Source of the DNA: Lysobacter capsici | Lineage (GTDB): Bacteria; Pseudomonadota; Gammaproteobacteria; Xanthomonadales; Xanthomonadaceae | Direction of reading: 5' to 3' | DNA length: 64,000 nucleotides | Assembly: GCF_014779555.2 (NCBI RefSeq) | Contig: NZ_CP094357.1 | Coordinates: forward strand, 3,720,001 to 3,784,000 | Part shown: positions 744 to 7,281 of the stretch, one piece after another | Layout: every line of letters starts with the position of its first letter | Position numbering within the stretch: the stretch's first letter is position 1 | The notes under the pieces: model-generated | What the model was told of the DNA's origin: nothing | The model's database searches: none | The model's input: the letters and a program-made list of their open reading frames with translations, nothing else | Program-made: the position numbers and the translations under genes

Positions 744-2834
744 ATGCCGATACAGCATCGTCTTGCCCTCTCCATCGCCTTGGCGACCGCAGCCGCAACC
801 TGTCCTGTTACGTCAGCTTTTGCCGTTACGCGTCACGAATCCACCCCCGACCCCCTGCCCGAAATCGAGCGCCTGCGCTCGGATCGGCAGTGGCTGGCCG
901 CGCTTGCGCATATCGAACGTGCACAAACCCAGCGCCCGGATGATGAGCAACTGTACCGGCTGCAAGTCCTGACCCTGGCCGACCTGGGCGGCGCCGAGCG
1001 CGCCTGGTCCCTCGCGCAGGCCCGACCGGGCTTGTTCAGCGACGCCGAACGCCAACGCCTGAGCTCGGACCGCCTGGCGCGCCGGGTCCTGTGGGGCACC
1101 CTGTTTCCCGAGAACGAAGCCCAGCGCCTGTCCGAGATGCGCGATGCCCGCGGCATCCTCGAACAGCACCGCGCCGGCCAGACCCCGGCGCAGCAACAGG
1201 CCGAGCTGCGCACGCGGTTCGACGAACTGGTGATGCTCAACCATCTCGAGCGCCACGCCGAGGTCGTGCAGCGCTACCGCGCGCTGCAGGCCGAGAACGT
1301 GCAACTGCCGATGTACGCGCTGGCCAAGGTCGGCGCGTCGCTGCTCGCCGACAAGCATCCCGAGGAAGCCGCGAGCGTGCTCGAACACGTCGTGCGCGAA
1401 TGGCCCGACGACAACGACTCGCAGCTGCAACTGGCCTACGCCTATTCCGAAAGCGAGCGCTTCGACGACGCCTACGCGCAACTGGACAAGATCAAGGCGG
1501 CCGAACCGGCGTTCGTGCGGGTCAAGGGCGCCAAGGAAAGCCACGAGAACTGGCGCCACTACGACGCCGACAGCCACCAGACCATGATCCGCCTGTACGG
1601 CGAAGACACGGTCGGCGCGCAGCGGCGCCTGGAGGAAATGGCCGCGATCGGGCCCAACAACGCCGGCCTGCAGAGCGACCTGGGCGTCACCTATCAAAAG
1701 CGCGGCTGGACCGATCGCGCGCTGGAACGTTTCCAGATGGCCAGCACCATGGAACCGACCAATGTCGGCGCGCGCATCGGCCAGATCGGCGCGTACCTGG
1801 AACACGATCGGGTCGACCTCGCCCGTCCGATCCACGACGAATTGCTGGCCAATCGCGCGCGCGACGTGCAGGTCAAGCAGATGGCGCAATCCTGGGATCA
1901 ACGCCTGGGCTGGCAATGGCTGATCGGCACCGCCGGCGGCCGCAGCGACGCGCGCGGCGGCGGCGCGACCGCATCGCCGCTGGGCTCGCGCGATGGCGAG
2001 CACCGTTTCGAAATCATGAGCCCGCTGATCCACGACCGCTGGCGCCTGACCGCGCATGCGCGCGACGCCTGGGCCGATTACCCCGACGGCGCGCTGCGCA
2101 CCGAGCGCGTCCACGACCGCCGCAGCGGCGTCGGCGGCCTGTACGCCTACGATCGCCTGACCGTCGGCTTCGGCGTCGATCGCGCCAACGATCGCTGGCT
2201 CGACCGTGGCGATCGCACCGGTTACTACCTCGATGCCGGCTGGCGCTTCAACGATCTGTGGCGCGGCACCGCGTCGTGGTATCGCGGCACGCCGGAGGCT
2301 TCGCTGCAGGCGCGCCGCGCCGGCATCGATGCCGACGCGTTCAGTCTGGGCCTGCGCTACACCCCGAGCGAACGCACATCCTTGAGCGCGAGCGCGCAGC
2401 AACTGCGCTACAGCGACGACAACACCCGCACCGCGTTCGGCCTGAGCGGCGCGCAGCGCCTGTACACGCAGCCGCATCTGCTGATCGACGGCCTGGCTGA
2501 TCTGGCGACCAGCCGCGCCAGTCGCCGCGACAACGAGGTGCCCTACTTCAATCCCAGCCGCGACGCGTCCTTGAACCTCGGCCTGCGCATCGATCACCTG
2601 GCCTGGAGACGTTACGAGCGCCACTTCCGCCAGCGCCTGACCGTACAGGCCGGGCCGTATTGGCAGCAGGGCTACGGCAGCTACTGGGTGCCGCAGGTGC
2701 GCTACGAACACGAATGGCGTTTCGCCACCGGCCGCACGCTCGACTACGGCATCAACTGGTCGCGCCCCGTCTACGACGGCGTGCGCGAGGACCGGCTGGG
2801 CTTCGATATGACTTTCCGTTGGGGTGAGCAATGA
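744..2834 (+). CDS. pgaA: Poly-beta-1,6-N-acetyl-D-glucosamine export porin PgaA
   Basis: The 696-residue protein has a signal peptide (about residues 1-27, ending SAFA), a long tetratricopeptide-like helical region (about 35-390, with typical W/L/A-Y-x-P patterns), and a C-terminal region of alternating hydrophobic and aromatic strands (about 400-696) ending in the beta-barrel signature MTFRWGEQ. This is the PgaA plan: a periplasmic TPR superhelix that binds deacetylated polymer, then a 16-strand outer-membrane porin. E. coli PgaA is somewhat longer (about 800). It is first in pgaABCD, overlapping pgaB by ATGA. A perfect Clp-type operator lies just upstream. No strong ribosome-binding site precedes the ATG; it is chosen because the signal peptide follows directly. 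Confidence 0.93.
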   Translation: MPIQHRLALSIALATAAATCPVTSAFAVTRHESTPDPLPEIERLRSDRQWLAALAHIERAQTQRPDDEQLYRLQVLTLADLGGAERAWSLAQARPGLFSDAERQRLSSDRLARRVLWGTLFPENEAQRLSEMRDARGILEQHRAGQTPAQQQAELRTRFDELVMLNHLERHAEVVQRYRALQAENVQLPMYALAKVGASLLADKHPEEAASVLEHVVREWPDDNDSQLQLAYAYSESERFDDAYAQLDKIKAAEPAFVRVKGAKESHENWRHYDADSHQTMIRLYGEDTVGAQRRLEEMAAIGPNNAGLQSDLGVTYQKRGWTDRALERFQMASTMEPTNVGARIGQIGAYLEHDRVDLARPIHDELLANRARDVQVKQMAQSWDQRLGWQWLIGTAGGRSDARGGGATASPLGSRDGEHRFEIMSPLIHDRWRLTAHARDAWADYPDGALRTERVHDRRSGVGGLYAYDRLTVGFGVDRANDRWLDRGDRTGYYLDAGWRFNDLWRGTASWYRGTPEASLQARRAGIDADAFSLGLRYTPSERTSLSASAQQLRYSDDNTRTAFGLSGAQRLYTQPHLLIDGLADLATSRASRRDNEVPYFNPSRDASLNLGLRIDHLAWRRYERHFRQRLTVQAGPYWQQGYGSYWVPQVRYEHEWRFATGRTLDYGINWSRPVYDGVREDRLGFDMTFRWGEQ

Positions 2835-4768
2835 GCGGTTCGATGGGCGGCGCGATGCGGCGCTGGATGATCTTCGTGTTGGTGCTTGCGATGACGAGCG
2901 TGGGTTCGGCCTGGGCCACGGATGCCGGCACGGCCGCGCAAGCGCCGGATATGACCCGGGTCGAGGTGGGCAACGGCGAACTGCTCGTGCTGAGCTACCA
3001 CGACATCCGCGACGACGTCGCGCGCAAGGGCGACCCCGACGCCTACGCGGTCAGCACCCAGAACTTCGCCGCGCATCTGGATTGGCTGTCCGGCCACGGC
3101 TATCGCCCGGTGCCGCTCAGCGAGGTCATCGCCGCTTCGCGCGGCGGCAAGCCGTTGCCGCCCAAGGCCGTGCTGCTGACCTTCGACGACGGCCTGCGCA
3201 GCATCTACACACACGTGTTCCCGCTGCTGCGCGCCTATCGCTATCCGGCGCTGATGGCGGTGGTGACCGGCTGGGTCGATCTGCCGCGCGAGCAGCAGGT
3301 CGACTACGGCCCGCGCATGTTCACCCACGACGATTTCGTCACCTGGGACCAGCTGCGCGAAATGCAGGCCTCGGGCCTGATCGAGATCGCCTCGCACAGC
3401 GATAACCTGCACCGCGGCGTGACCTCCAACCCGCAGGGCAACACCATGCCCGCGGCGATCACCCGCGAATGGGACAGCAAGACGCAGCGTTACGAAACCG
3501 AGGCGCAGTACCTGGCGCGGGTGCGCAAGGACCTCACCGACAGCGCCGCCAGGATCAAGCGCGAACTCGGCGTCGCGCCGCAGTCGGTGGTGTGGCCGTA
3601 CGCGGCCTACAACAGCCAGACCAACGCGATCGCCGACCAGCTCGGCATGACCGTGACCTTCGATCTGGAAGGCCGCCACCAGAAGATCGGCGCCGACCTG
3701 CACGGGCTGGCGCGTCTGCTGATGTTCGACAACCCGACCGTCAACGACCTGGCCTATGAACTGCGCCACGACGAAGAGCTCGACGGCGTGCGCGCGCTGC
3801 AGATCGATCTGGATTACGTCTACGACGCCGACCCGGCCCAGCAGGCGCGCAATCTCGACAAGCTGATCGAGCGGGTCAAGCAGATCGGCCCGAGCCACAT
3901 CTTCCTGCAGGCCTTCGCCGATCCCGACGGCAACGGCTCGGCCGACGCGCTGTATTTCCCGAACCGGCACATGCCGATGCGCGCCGACCTGTACAACCGC
4001 GTCGCCTGGCAGCTCAAGACCCGCGCGCACGTCAAGGTGTTCGCATGGTTGCCGGTGCTCGGTTACGAATTGCCCGACGCGGCCCTGCGTGATCGTCTGG
4101 CGATCAAGGCCAGCAATCCGAAGGAAACCTTCCGCCTCAATCCGTTCGAGCCCGACACCCGCCGCATCGTCGCCGACATCTACGAAGACCTGGCGATCAG
4201 CGGTTACACCGAAGGCCCGCTGTTCCACGACGACGCCTTGCTGCGCGAGGACGAACTGCGCGGCCAGGCGCCGGCCGATCCGGCCGCGCGCACCGCCGCG
4301 CTGATCGGCTTCACCCAGGAACTCGCGCGCGCCGCCGGCAAGTGGCGGCCGAAGCTGATCACCGTGCGCAACCTGTTCGCCGCGCCCGTGCTCGATCCCA
4401 ACAGCGAGGCCTGGTTCGCCCAGGACCTGGCCGCGTTCAACCGCGCCTACGACTACACCGCGGTGATGGCGATGCCGTGGATGGAGAACAGCCGCGATCC
4501 GCAGGCATGGATGGATCATCTGGTCGCGCAGGTCAAAAAGTCGCCGCGCGGCCTGGCGCGCACCATCTTCGAATTGCAGACGGTCGACTGGCGCCAGCGC
4601 GACAAGCCGATCCCCGCCGCGCGCCTGAAGGCCATGGCGCATCGCCTGCAGGCCGACGGCGCGCGCCACCTGGCCTGGTACCCGGACAACTTCATCGACG
4701 ATCAGCCCTCGACCCGCGACGCGCGCGAAATCATGTCCGCGCGCGGCTTCCCTTACCTCGAGCGCTGA
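2831..4768 (+). CDS. pgaB: Poly-beta-1,6-N-acetyl-D-glucosamine N-deacetylase PgaB
   Basis: The 645-residue protein partly deacetylates PNAG in the periplasm, which is needed for export through PgaA. The N-terminal polysaccharide deacetylase (CE4) domain shows TFDDG at 117-121 (catalytic and metal-binding Asp) and the metal histidines H189 and H194 (HSDNLH). The C-terminal half (about 265-640) is the GH153/GH13-like hydrolase domain of PgaB. The hydrophobic leader (MRRWMIFVLVLAM then SAWA) is an ordinary signal peptide. Unlike E. coli PgaB there is no cysteine after it, so this enzyme is probably soluble periplasmic rather than a lipoprotein. Translation may begin at 2831 (coupled ATGA with pgaA) or at the ATG at 2855. 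Confidence 0.95.
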   Translation: MSGSMGGAMRRWMIFVLVLAMTSVGSAWATDAGTAAQAPDMTRVEVGNGELLVLSYHDIRDDVARKGDPDAYAVSTQNFAAHLDWLSGHGYRPVPLSEVIAASRGGKPLPPKAVLLTFDDGLRSIYTHVFPLLRAYRYPALMAVVTGWVDLPREQQVDYGPRMFTHDDFVTWDQLREMQASGLIEIASHSDNLHRGVTSNPQGNTMPAAITREWDSKTQRYETEAQYLARVRKDLTDSAARIKRELGVAPQSVVWPYAAYNSQTNAIADQLGMTVTFDLEGRHQKIGADLHGLARLLMFDNPTVNDLAYELRHDEELDGVRALQIDLDYVYDADPAQQARNLDKLIERVKQIGPSHIFLQAFADPDGNGSADALYFPNRHMPMRADLYNRVAWQLKTRAHVKVFAWLPVLGYELPDAALRDRLAIKASNPKETFRLNPFEPDTRRIVADIYEDLAISGYTEGPLFHDDALLREDELRGQAPADPAARTAALIGFTQELARAAGKWRPKLITVRNLFAAPVLDPNSEAWFAQDLAAFNRAYDYTAVMAMPWMENSRDPQAWMDHLVAQVKKSPRGLARTIFELQTVDWRQRDKPIPAARLKAMAHRLQADGARHLAWYPDNFIDDQPSTRDAREIMSARGFPYLER

Positions 4769-4816
4769 GCGGCGCCCCGCCGCCCAGCGCATCGGATCGA
4801 TCGTCCCGAGACCGTC

Positions 4817-6076
4817 ATGAATCAAGCCGCCAGCCCGCTGCTCGCCTTGCTGTTCCAGTTCGCGTTCTTCTACCCGATCGTGATGTCGTTCTTCTGGATT
4901 TCCGGCGGGCTGTACTACTACTTCCGCCGCGAACGCGGGTCGCTGCCGCGGACCACGCCGCCGGCGATGGACGACGCGCCGTTCGTGTCGATCCTGATCC
5001 CGTGCCACAACGAAGGCGACCACGTCCACGAAACCATCGCCGCCGCGCTGGCCCAGCGCTATCCGCAATTCGAAGTGATCGCGATCAACGACGGCAGCCG
5101 CGACGACACCGGCGACAAGCTCAATCGTCTCGCCGCCCAGCATCCGCAACTGCGCGTGGTCCATCTGGACCGCAACCTCGGCAAGGCCAACGCGATGCGC
5201 ATGGGCGCGCTGGCCGCGCGTTCGGAGTATCTGGTCTGCATCGACGGCGACGCGTTGCTCGACGAGTACGCGACCCACTGGATGGTCTGGCATCTGTGCC
5301 AGGGCGCGCGGGTCGGCGCGGTCACCGGCAACCCGCGCATCCGCAACCGTTCGACCTTGCTCGGCCGCCTGCAGGTCGGCGAGTTCTCCTCGATCATCGG
5401 CATGATCAAGCGCGCGCAGCGCGTGTACGGCCGCATCTTCACCGTGTCCGGAGTGATCTGCGCGTTCCGACGCAGCGCCCTGCACCGGATCGGTTACTGG
5501 TCCGACAGCATGGTCACCGAGGACATCGACATCAGCTGGCGCCTGCAGATGGACCATTGGGACATCCGCTACGAACCCAATGCGATGTGCTTCATCCTGA
5601 TGCCCGAAACCCTGAAGGGCCTGTGGAAACAGCGCCTGCGCTGGGCCCAGGGCGGCGTCGAAGTGCTGATGCGCCACACCCGCGATCTGTTCTCGTGGCG
5701 CAAGCGACGGATGTGGGCGGTGCTGGCCGAGTATGTGCTCAGCGTGATCTGGGCCTACACCATGGCCTTCATCATCGCGCTGTGGGCCATCGGCCTGTTC
5801 GTCGAACTGCCGGTGCAGTTGCGCGTGACCACGCTGTTGCCGTCGTGGCACGGCGTGATCCTGGCGCTGATCTGCCTGCTGCAGTTCGCCGCCAGCATCA
5901 TCATCGACCGCCGCTACGAAACCGGGGTCGGGCGCAATTACTACTGGATGATCTGGTACCCGATGGCGTACTGGCTGTTGAGCTTCGCGACCACGGTCAC
6001 CGCCGTGCCCAAGGCGCTGCTCAAGCGCCGCGGCACCCGCGCGACTTGGGTCAGCCCGGATCGGGGCATCCGATGA
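4817..6076 (+). CDS. pgaC: PNAG synthase glycosyltransferase PgaC
   Basis: This family 2 inner-membrane glycosyltransferase polymerises UDP-GlcNAc into beta-1,6-linked poly-GlcNAc. The 419 residues include an N-terminal membrane segment (about 8-36), then the processive GT2 catalytic core with NDGS at 91-94, DGD at 143-145, the catalytic-base motif TED at 234-236 and QRLRW at 272-276 (QxxRW). Three or so membrane segments follow (about 297-390). Length matches E. coli PgaC (441). The stop overlaps the start of the next gene by ATGA (6073-6076), so PgaD-TonB and PgaC are translationally coupled. All catalytic motifs are intact. Confidence 0.96.
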   Translation: MNQAASPLLALLFQFAFFYPIVMSFFWISGGLYYYFRRERGSLPRTTPPAMDDAPFVSILIPCHNEGDHVHETIAAALAQRYPQFEVIAINDGSRDDTGDKLNRLAAQHPQLRVVHLDRNLGKANAMRMGALAARSEYLVCIDGDALLDEYATHWMVWHLCQGARVGAVTGNPRIRNRSTLLGRLQVGEFSSIIGMIKRAQRVYGRIFTVSGVICAFRRSALHRIGYWSDSMVTEDIDISWRLQMDHWDIRYEPNAMCFILMPETLKGLWKQRLRWAQGGVEVLMRHTRDLFSWRKRRMWAVLAEYVLSVIWAYTMAFIIALWAIGLFVELPVQLRVTTLLPSWHGVILALICLLQFAASIIIDRRYETGVGRNYYWMIWYPMAYWLLSFATTVTAVPKALLKRRGTRATWVSPDRGIR

Positions 6077-7281
6077 GTACGGATCAAATGAATACGGATA
6101 TTCGCAACGCCGCCGGCGCAGGCGGCTCCGGCCGCCCGGTCAAGATGCCTCCGAACGCGCACAAGCACGACTCGCGCCTGATCCAGAAACCCGGCGCGCA
6201 GCGCGCGTTGCCGCGCACGATGTGGGGCGTGATCACCGGCGCGTTCTGGCTGGCGTACCTGTATCTGTGGACGCCGGTGGTGACCCTGGTGATGTGGCTG
6301 CTCGGCATCCGCAGCGTCGCCTCCGAGTTGTACCTGCGCAAGCACGAAGTCGACCCGTTCCTGATGCTCGCCCTGCCCGCCACCGCCGGCGTGGTGGTCG
6401 CGTTGCTGCTGATCTGGGCCGAGTACAACCGCTGGCGCTTCGCCGCCAAGAGCAGCGAACGGCGCGGGCAACAACGCGAAGTCGGCCTGGACGAAGTCGC
6501 GCGCGGGCTCGGCGCCGACGCGCAGGTCGCCCGCGCGCTCAACGCCGGCCGCGTCAGCGTGCTGCACATGGACCCCAACCACGCGGTGCCGCTGTCGGTC
6601 ACCGCGGTCACGCCCACCCTGCCCGCGCAGCCGTTCCCGCCGACCGCGCCGATGCCGCGCTTCACCCGCCAGGCCGCGCCCGGCAACGGCTGGATGGTGG
6701 TGCTGGCGTTGGCCACGATCACGCTGGTGGTCGGCGTGCTGTTGCTGGTGTCGCAGGCGTATCGACAGATGGAAAGCAGTTCGCCGCTGCAAAGCATCGA
6801 AGGCACGCCCGGCATGGACCGGCCCGCATTGAGCGCCGAACAACTCGCCGAGCAGACCCAGGCGATGATGACGCGCCTGTCCGACGAACCGATCAAGCTC
6901 GCCAGGGCGATCGCTGCGGCGGTGGAAAAGGCTGAAGCCGAGCGCGCCGACGCCGAGCGCTCGCGCACCAAAACCCGCGCGAACGCCAAGCCGCTGGCCA
7001 CCAACGCCAAACCGCGCCCGCTACCGGGATTCAGCCCGAAACCGCCGTACCCGCTGGAAGCCCAGCGCCATCGCGAAGGCGGCCTGGTGAAATTGAAGGT
7101 GCAGGTCTCGGCCGACGGCCGCGCGCTCCGGGTCGACCTGCTCAAGCGCAGCGGCCATCGCGACCTCGACCGCGCCGCGGTCAACACCGTGCGCACCTGG
7201 CGTTTCGCGCCGGCGGTGCGCAACGGCAAGGCGATCGCGGCGGTGGTGATCGTGCCGGTGGAGTTCAAGCCACGGGACTGA
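6073..7281 (+). CDS. pgaD: PgaD fused to a TonB C-terminal domain
   Basis: PgaD is the small inner-membrane partner that activates PgaC and forms part of its c-di-GMP-dependent complex; E. coli PgaD is about 137 residues. This protein is 402. Residues about 30-150 are PgaD-like: basic N-terminus, TM1 at 50-79, TM2 at 96-116, ending AEYNRWRF. A linker leads to a third membrane segment (206-228), an acidic/Ala-rich helix (about 255-297), a Lys/Pro stretch (about 300-325), and residues 322-399, a clear TonB_C domain (PYPLEAQRHREGG, VSADGRALRV, DLDRAAVNTVRTWRFAP, VPVEF). One uninterrupted frame covers everything. With PgaD's C-terminus cytoplasmic, TM3 would place the TonB domain in the periplasm, a consistent topology. 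It is the last pga gene; a convergent gene follows at 7424. Confidence 0.9.
   Translation: MSTDQMNTDIRNAAGAGGSGRPVKMPPNAHKHDSRLIQKPGAQRALPRTMWGVITGAFWLAYLYLWTPVVTLVMWLLGIRSVASELYLRKHEVDPFLMLALPATAGVVVALLLIWAEYNRWRFAAKSSERRGQQREVGLDEVARGLGADAQVARALNAGRVSVLHMDPNHAVPLSVTAVTPTLPAQPFPPTAPMPRFTRQAAPGNGWMVVLALATITLVVGVLLLVSQAYRQMESSSPLQSIEGTPGMDRPALSAEQLAEQTQAMMTRLSDEPIKLARAIAAAVEKAEAERADAERSRTKTRANAKPLATNAKPRPLPGFSPKPPYPLEAQRHREGGLVKLKVQVSADGRALRVDLLKRSGHRDLDRAAVNTVRTWRFAPAVRNGKAIAAVVIVPVEFKPRD

Follow-up and report, generated by a model that had tools for sequence, protein, structure and literature searches.

The pga operon ends in a pgaD-tonB fusion gene

The window analyzed here, a stretch of 64,000 nucleotides of Lysobacter capsici (contig NZ_CP094357.1, positions 3,720,001 to 3,784,000 of the forward strand), contains a pga operon in the order pgaA-B-C-D. 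A first-pass annotation, made from the sequence alone, had described the last gene as pgaD fused to a TonB domain in one uninterrupted 402-residue frame, coupled to pgaC by ATGA. Translation bore out the frame, and as pgaC ends at 6076, the two genes overlap by 4 nt. The gene order and the pgaC/pgaD ATGA overlap are found in all 20 genus loci examined, and the overlap also in one outgroup. Positions within the window are as follows:

744 to 2834, plus strand: pgaA, encoding TPR repeats and an outer-membrane barrel (TIGR03939, 394 bits; barrel PF21197)
2831 to 4768, plus strand: pgaB, encoding a deacetylase and a GHL13 domain (TIGR03938, 785 bits)
4817 to 6076, plus strand: pgaC, encoding the PNAG synthase, with the ATGA overlap with pgaD (TIGR03937, 642 bits)
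6073 to 7281, plus strand: pgaD-tonB fusion gene, 402 aa in one stop-free frame
6181 to 6573, plus strand: PgaD core, residues 37-167, two transmembrane (TM) helices (PF13994, 5.5e-21; TIGR03940, 104.5 bits)
6424 to 6432, plus strand: Y118-N119-R120, where TM2 ends on the cytoplasmic side; identical in every fused protein and also found in unfused relatives
6574 to 6687, plus strand: Pro-rich linker in the cytoplasm, residues 168-205, with a length of 37-41 aa in the species compared
6688 to 6759, plus strand: third TM helix (TM3), residues about 206-229, without Ser-x3-His and without a mid-membrane His
6769 to 7041, plus strand: periplasmic spacer, residues 233-323, starting with an EGxPGxDRP block; 81-99 aa, dN/dS up to about 1.3
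7036 to 7269, plus strand: TonB C-terminal domain (CTD), residues 322-399 (PF03544, 1.6e-20; TIGR01352, 2.6e-18)

By every test made, the product of 6073-7281 is a PgaD with an added module. Its PgaD matches lie well above the cut-offs (TIGR03940, 4.3e-30, 104.5 bits versus 31.45; PF13994, 75.5 versus 27). Compared to PgaD/HmsS proteins (TIGR03940, PF13994), it has the full two-TM core, the pgaABCD operon and the YN[KR]xRF sequence after TM2, but carries about 235 extra residues, consisting of a linker, a third TM, a spacer and a TonB CTD. Hydropathy analysis gave three hydrophobic segments, the third at about residues 206-229, which is a helix at 206-235 in the AF2 model. The AF2 model of the whole fusion was poor (mean pLDDT 55.6), with residues 341-400 at pLDDT 79-87. 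When the model was searched with Foldseek, solved TonB CTDs ranked at the top (6i97_D, TMt 0.81; 1u07_A, 0.76), and a PDB sequence search with the fusion returned the same TonB CTD family, with no PgaD chain among the matches. Since profile and fold searches both give genuine TonB CTDs, a non-TonB repeat was ruled out. Together, profiles, hydropathy and AF2/Foldseek confirm the architecture proposed in the first-pass annotation, in which a complete PgaD with two TMs is followed by a third TM and a canonical TonB CTD. The topology also stands: the N-terminus is in the cytoplasm, and the two PgaD TMs, cytoplasmic linker and TM3 place the TonB CTD in the periplasm.

We aligned Y118-N119-R120 by eye with the YNK motif of E. 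coli PgaD, which is implicated in the response to c-di-GMP. The YNR motif is kept; the fused PgaD is probably a c-di-GMP-responsive partner of PgaC and may form with it the c-di-GMP-stabilized complex expected of a PgaD.

We considered whether the TonB part might be translated separately. None of the in-frame internal starts at residues 161-330 is preceded by a Shine-Dalgarno-like sequence, and no internal Met is conserved, the ATG inside TM3 included; separate translation was rejected. A frameshift or pseudogene was also rejected, since none of the fused relatives, 14 of them in Lysobacter and two outside it, has a break in the frame.

The fusion is conserved in Lysobacter and found in a second genus

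PgaD is encoded in all 20 Lysobacter genomes compared, among which the named records are Lysobacter antibioticus, L. enzymogenes and Lysobacter sp. Root690, ISL-50 and yr284. The fused form (378-443 aa) is present in 15 of these, including the window, while the remaining five encode an ordinary PgaD of 169-189 aa, and no remnants of the tail were found 3′ of the unfused pgaD genes. A search of PgaD homologues for fused PF03544 domains, which the first-pass annotation had recommended, placed the fusion in two genera of the family: 14 other Lysobacter genomes, at 55-95% identity, and, at 45% identity, a second genus, where two of the 18 genomes with PgaD carry it. In other genera, orders and classes, no fusion was detected in the PgaD-positive genomes that we scanned with the fused profile, a scan that included only some of those in genera g17 and g29. 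At the class and phylum levels, PgaD itself is sparse. Plasmids yielded ordinary TonB matches only. Since the architecture is conserved across the 14 other Lysobacter species, the fusion did not arise by chance; it is genuine and conserved rather than a strain artefact.

In two genomes (G026 C1:1468775-1471090 and G122 C1:123749-126037), two PgaD-like ORFs lie about 1.9 kb apart, which suggests that pgaD or pgaCD has been duplicated there.

The closest TonB_C paralogues of the fusion are a tandem pair of TonB-like genes on the minus strand (C1:2421125-2421484 and 2421978-2422268), which is conserved across the genus. The encoded proteins have a short cytoplasmic N-terminus, one His-less TM, a spacer and TonB_C. 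Thus, their layout is that of the C-terminal half of the fusion, but the genes are free-standing, beside aroA and serS. In a TonB_C tree, the fused domains formed one group (94/87) near the tandem pair and apart from canonical TonB; the outgroup, E. coli TonB, has a very long branch that leaves the root unsure. All fused proteins also grouped in a tree of the PgaD core (91/87). The PgaC tree, in which Lysobacter is one clade at 99/98, needs two changes for the fusion. Two independent fusions are disfavored, as the PgaD core and the TonB domain each group all fused proteins, and they fit less well because the junction sequence, PLSVTA, is common to both fused genera. One ancestral fusion, followed by losses or transfer, would fit these sequences. 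The genome contains 23 TonB_C stretches in all, and several TonB_C proteins have two TonB_C copies.

The TonB domain and the length of the spacer are constrained

Across eight close pairs, dN/dS ranged from 0.06 to 0.31 in the PgaD core and from 0.11 to 0.43 in TonB_C. The TonB domain is therefore under purifying selection. For the spacer, values ranged from about 0.1 to 1.3 across the eight pairs and were near neutral in several, while its length was kept at 81-99 aa in the fused proteins as its sequence drifted. The spacer is 9-23% Pro, Ala-rich and partly helical in a low-confidence model. The EGxPGxDRP block just after TM3 is invariant in Lysobacter and is replaced by another sequence in the second genus. 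Because dN/dS of TonB_C is near that of the PgaD core, and the spacer is near neutral yet of constant length, both the reach and the end domain appear to be constrained. We infer that such a pattern is what one would expect of a functional end domain held on a tether of constrained length.

The selection data bear on whether the tail has no periplasmic partner and is either a passenger that the protein tolerates or a tag that stabilizes PgaD. That five of the 20 Lysobacter genomes, and nearly all PgaD proteins elsewhere, lack the tail is consistent with a passenger. However, purifying selection on the TonB domain, the constancy of spacer length over the depth of the genus and the retention of the tail in two genera make such a role very unlikely.

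Known features of energy coupling are absent from the fusion and from PgaA

The first-pass annotation had inferred a direct mechanical link between the synthase and an outer-membrane component, PgaA or a TonB-dependent receptor, through a TonB domain of the kind that delivers proton-motive force. If the fused PgaD were an energized TonB, TM3 would engage ExbBD encoded elsewhere, and proton-motive force delivered to PgaA or to a TonB-dependent receptor would drive or gate PNAG export. The genuine TonB CTD and a topology that puts it in the periplasm favor this possibility. As had been stated, there is no ExbD gene within the window; the six ExbD genes of the genome all lie outside its coordinates. 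Canonical TonB (G000 C1:11638) is encoded with exbB and three exbD genes, and this cluster and the six ExbD genes could serve in trans.

TonB is tied to ExbBD by two features: Ser-x3-His, which belongs to the SHLS motif of the TM helix and contacts Ser34 and Trp38 of ExbB, and a beta-prone motif just beyond the TM, the D-box, which binds ExbD (PMC12215075, PMC10907165). None of the 17 fused proteins has Ser-x3-His in TM3, and a mid-TM His is also absent. The conserved His near TM3 is located where the helix meets the periplasm; five of the 17 proteins, including that of the window, have Q or F instead. Using a strict pattern, we found no D-box after TM3 in any of the 17 proteins, and inspection by eye revealed no VTMVN core. 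The strict patterns also miss canonical Lysobacter TonB, which has Ala for the Ser of SHLS but keeps the mid-TM His and the VTMVN D-box core; our verdict rests on the absence of the mid-TM His and on reading the post-TM sequences. The spacer of the fused proteins is not a polyproline linker of the periplasm-spanning kind. Compared with TonB energy transducers (PF03544, TIGR01352), then, the fusion has a complete TonB CTD by profile and predicted fold and an N-in single TM before a periplasmic spacer, but lacks the SHLS Ser-x3-His, the D-box, the polyproline rod and linked exbBD, and its TonB part sits behind a two-TM synthase subunit.

We also examined the proposed recipient. A Pfam profile search revealed no plug domain in the window PgaA. 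The first-pass annotation had suggested checking PgaA for a TonB-box-like peptide; our motif scan detected none in PgaA or PgaB of the fused lineages. The sequence DMTRVEV near the PgaB N-terminus resembles a TonB box but was discounted, as it is limited to the window and the two genomes nearest to it. A protein other than PgaA may be the partner that has a plug and a TonB box. Because the fused proteins have no mid-TM His or D-box, and PgaA has neither a plug nor a TonB box, the fused PgaD is, on these sequence features, unlikely to be an energized TonB. Two further findings weigh against that role: the closest paralogues form a His-less subfamily, and the same fusion occurs alongside different PgaA lineages. 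Thus, of the two parts of the original proposal, the idea of a physical link between synthase and periplasm stands, while transfer of proton-motive force to PgaA is not supported.

The fusion occurs with two PgaA/PgaB lineages

Two PgaA/PgaB lineages, which share about 45-60% identity, accompany fused PgaD, and each is also found with unfused PgaD. In trees, the PgaA and PgaB sequences of Lysobacter with the fusion cluster with their counterparts from other genera that have unfused PgaD, and PgaA and PgaB of the second fused genus are placed elsewhere. Lysobacter monophyly was rejected for both proteins (PgaA, p 3e-6; PgaB, p 3e-4), and monophyly of the fused lineages more strongly still. Branch-length comparison revealed that the stem to the fused clade is not accelerated in PgaA/PgaB. 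Raw identities had suggested that PgaA/PgaB diverged together with the fusion, but the trees and the unaccelerated stem do not bear this out. Since the PgaA/PgaB trees split the fused lineages, the tail is, as far as these phylogenies indicate, not tied to one PgaA/PgaB type. It may either recognize a conserved feature of PgaA/PgaB or bind another component of the envelope.

Two other observations concern these operons. The pga operons are mosaic (L032-L051, L109-L110, L122-L133; window 744-6076), with PgaA and PgaB trees that conflict strongly with the PgaC tree. Within the fused Lysobacter, the PgaB N-termini before the deacetylase domain (window 2831-2990) vary widely in length and sequence, unlike the remainder of PgaB, which is >83% identical.

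If another envelope component is bound, the TonB-type domain could anchor or position the synthase through a general component, such as peptidoglycan or a non-Pga outer-membrane protein, and might set the site of PNAG on the cell. Compatibility of fused PgaD with two PgaA/PgaB lineages accords with such an anchor, as does the identity of the nearest relatives, which are stand-alone TonB-like proteins encoded next to the housekeeping genes aroA and serS rather than next to transporters. There is also a precedent in SjdR, a TonB-like protein that takes no part in siderophore transport and functions at the septal cell wall (PMC8262864). However, a cell-wall ligand for the fused domain is only putative, and we regard a general anchor as a modest possibility.

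Discussion

The explanation that we find best, and to which we give an even chance, is that a gene fusion added a non-energized, periplasm-spanning tether to PgaCD. A complete pgaD would have merged, with the frame kept, with the whole of a gene for a single-TM TonB-like protein, which probably was copied from the family's tandem pair that lacks the TM His. The resulting protein would retain the role of PgaD as a c-di-GMP-responsive partner of PgaC and gain TM3, a spacer of fixed length and a beta-alpha-beta TonB-type domain. This domain would pass on no proton-motive force and would instead dock, probably by beta-strand addition, on a periplasmic or outer-membrane partner. The PgaA TPR or PgaB would be the first candidates, with general envelope components second. 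Docking would hold the PgaCD synthase below the export and processing machinery, much as the Alg44 periplasmic domain does in alginate synthesis. The observations behind a tether are the fusion itself, its conservation, selection on the domain, the constraint on spacer length and the absence of ExbBD-coupling motifs.

Several points argue against it. For a tether to PgaA or PgaB, there is no sign of co-adaptation with either protein, because fused PgaD pairs with two lineages that both also occur with unfused PgaD. Five Lysobacter species manage without the tail. Moreover, our motif test is one of sequence, and a divergent form of ExbBD coupling is possible; a TM His is also missing from another TonB-like paralogue in the genome, C1:1981717. 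More tentatively, and with some doubt, we propose PgaD-TonB as a built-in linker across the envelope, through which c-di-GMP-activated PNAG synthesis at the inner membrane would be physically coupled to the export complex of PgaA and PgaB.

A parallel in layout is Alg44, which combines a c-di-GMP sensor, one TM and a periplasmic domain (PMC8461298). In the alginate system, AlgK-Alg44 provides a physical link of this kind (PMC9384988). Like the fusion, Alg44 responds to c-di-GMP, partners a GT2 synthase and has both a TM helix and a domain in the periplasm, which in Alg44 contacts export proteins (PMC8461298, PMC9384988). However, Alg44 has a PilZ domain, a membrane-fusion-protein fold and one TM, while the fusion consists of PgaD and a TonB CTD with three TMs. 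No Pfam match to a PilZ or membrane-fusion-protein domain was found in the 402-aa protein, and the likeness is one of layout only.

We found no description of a PgaD-TonB fusion in the literature searched. A transcriptome study of L. capsici CK09 noted a PgaD domain in the pga cluster; TonB goes unmentioned in the main text of that study (PMC10384520). The use of a TonB CTD without the known coupling motifs warns that TonB_C proteins should not all be annotated as energy transducers. For PgaD, the extra helix and TonB-type domain are more likely to form a passive tether from the synthase into the envelope than a proton-driven TonB motor.

PNAG has to pass from the inner-membrane PgaCD to PgaAB, and as of a 2022 study, there was no experimental evidence for a physical link between PgaC/D and PgaA/B (PMC9384988). 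The natural fusion offers a defined handle on this passage in a biocontrol genus and renders the question of PgaCD-PgaAB linkage testable. If the fusion is indeed a trans-envelope linker, it would be the missing link of the PNAG secretion machine, present in Lysobacter as a covalent part of the synthase partner.
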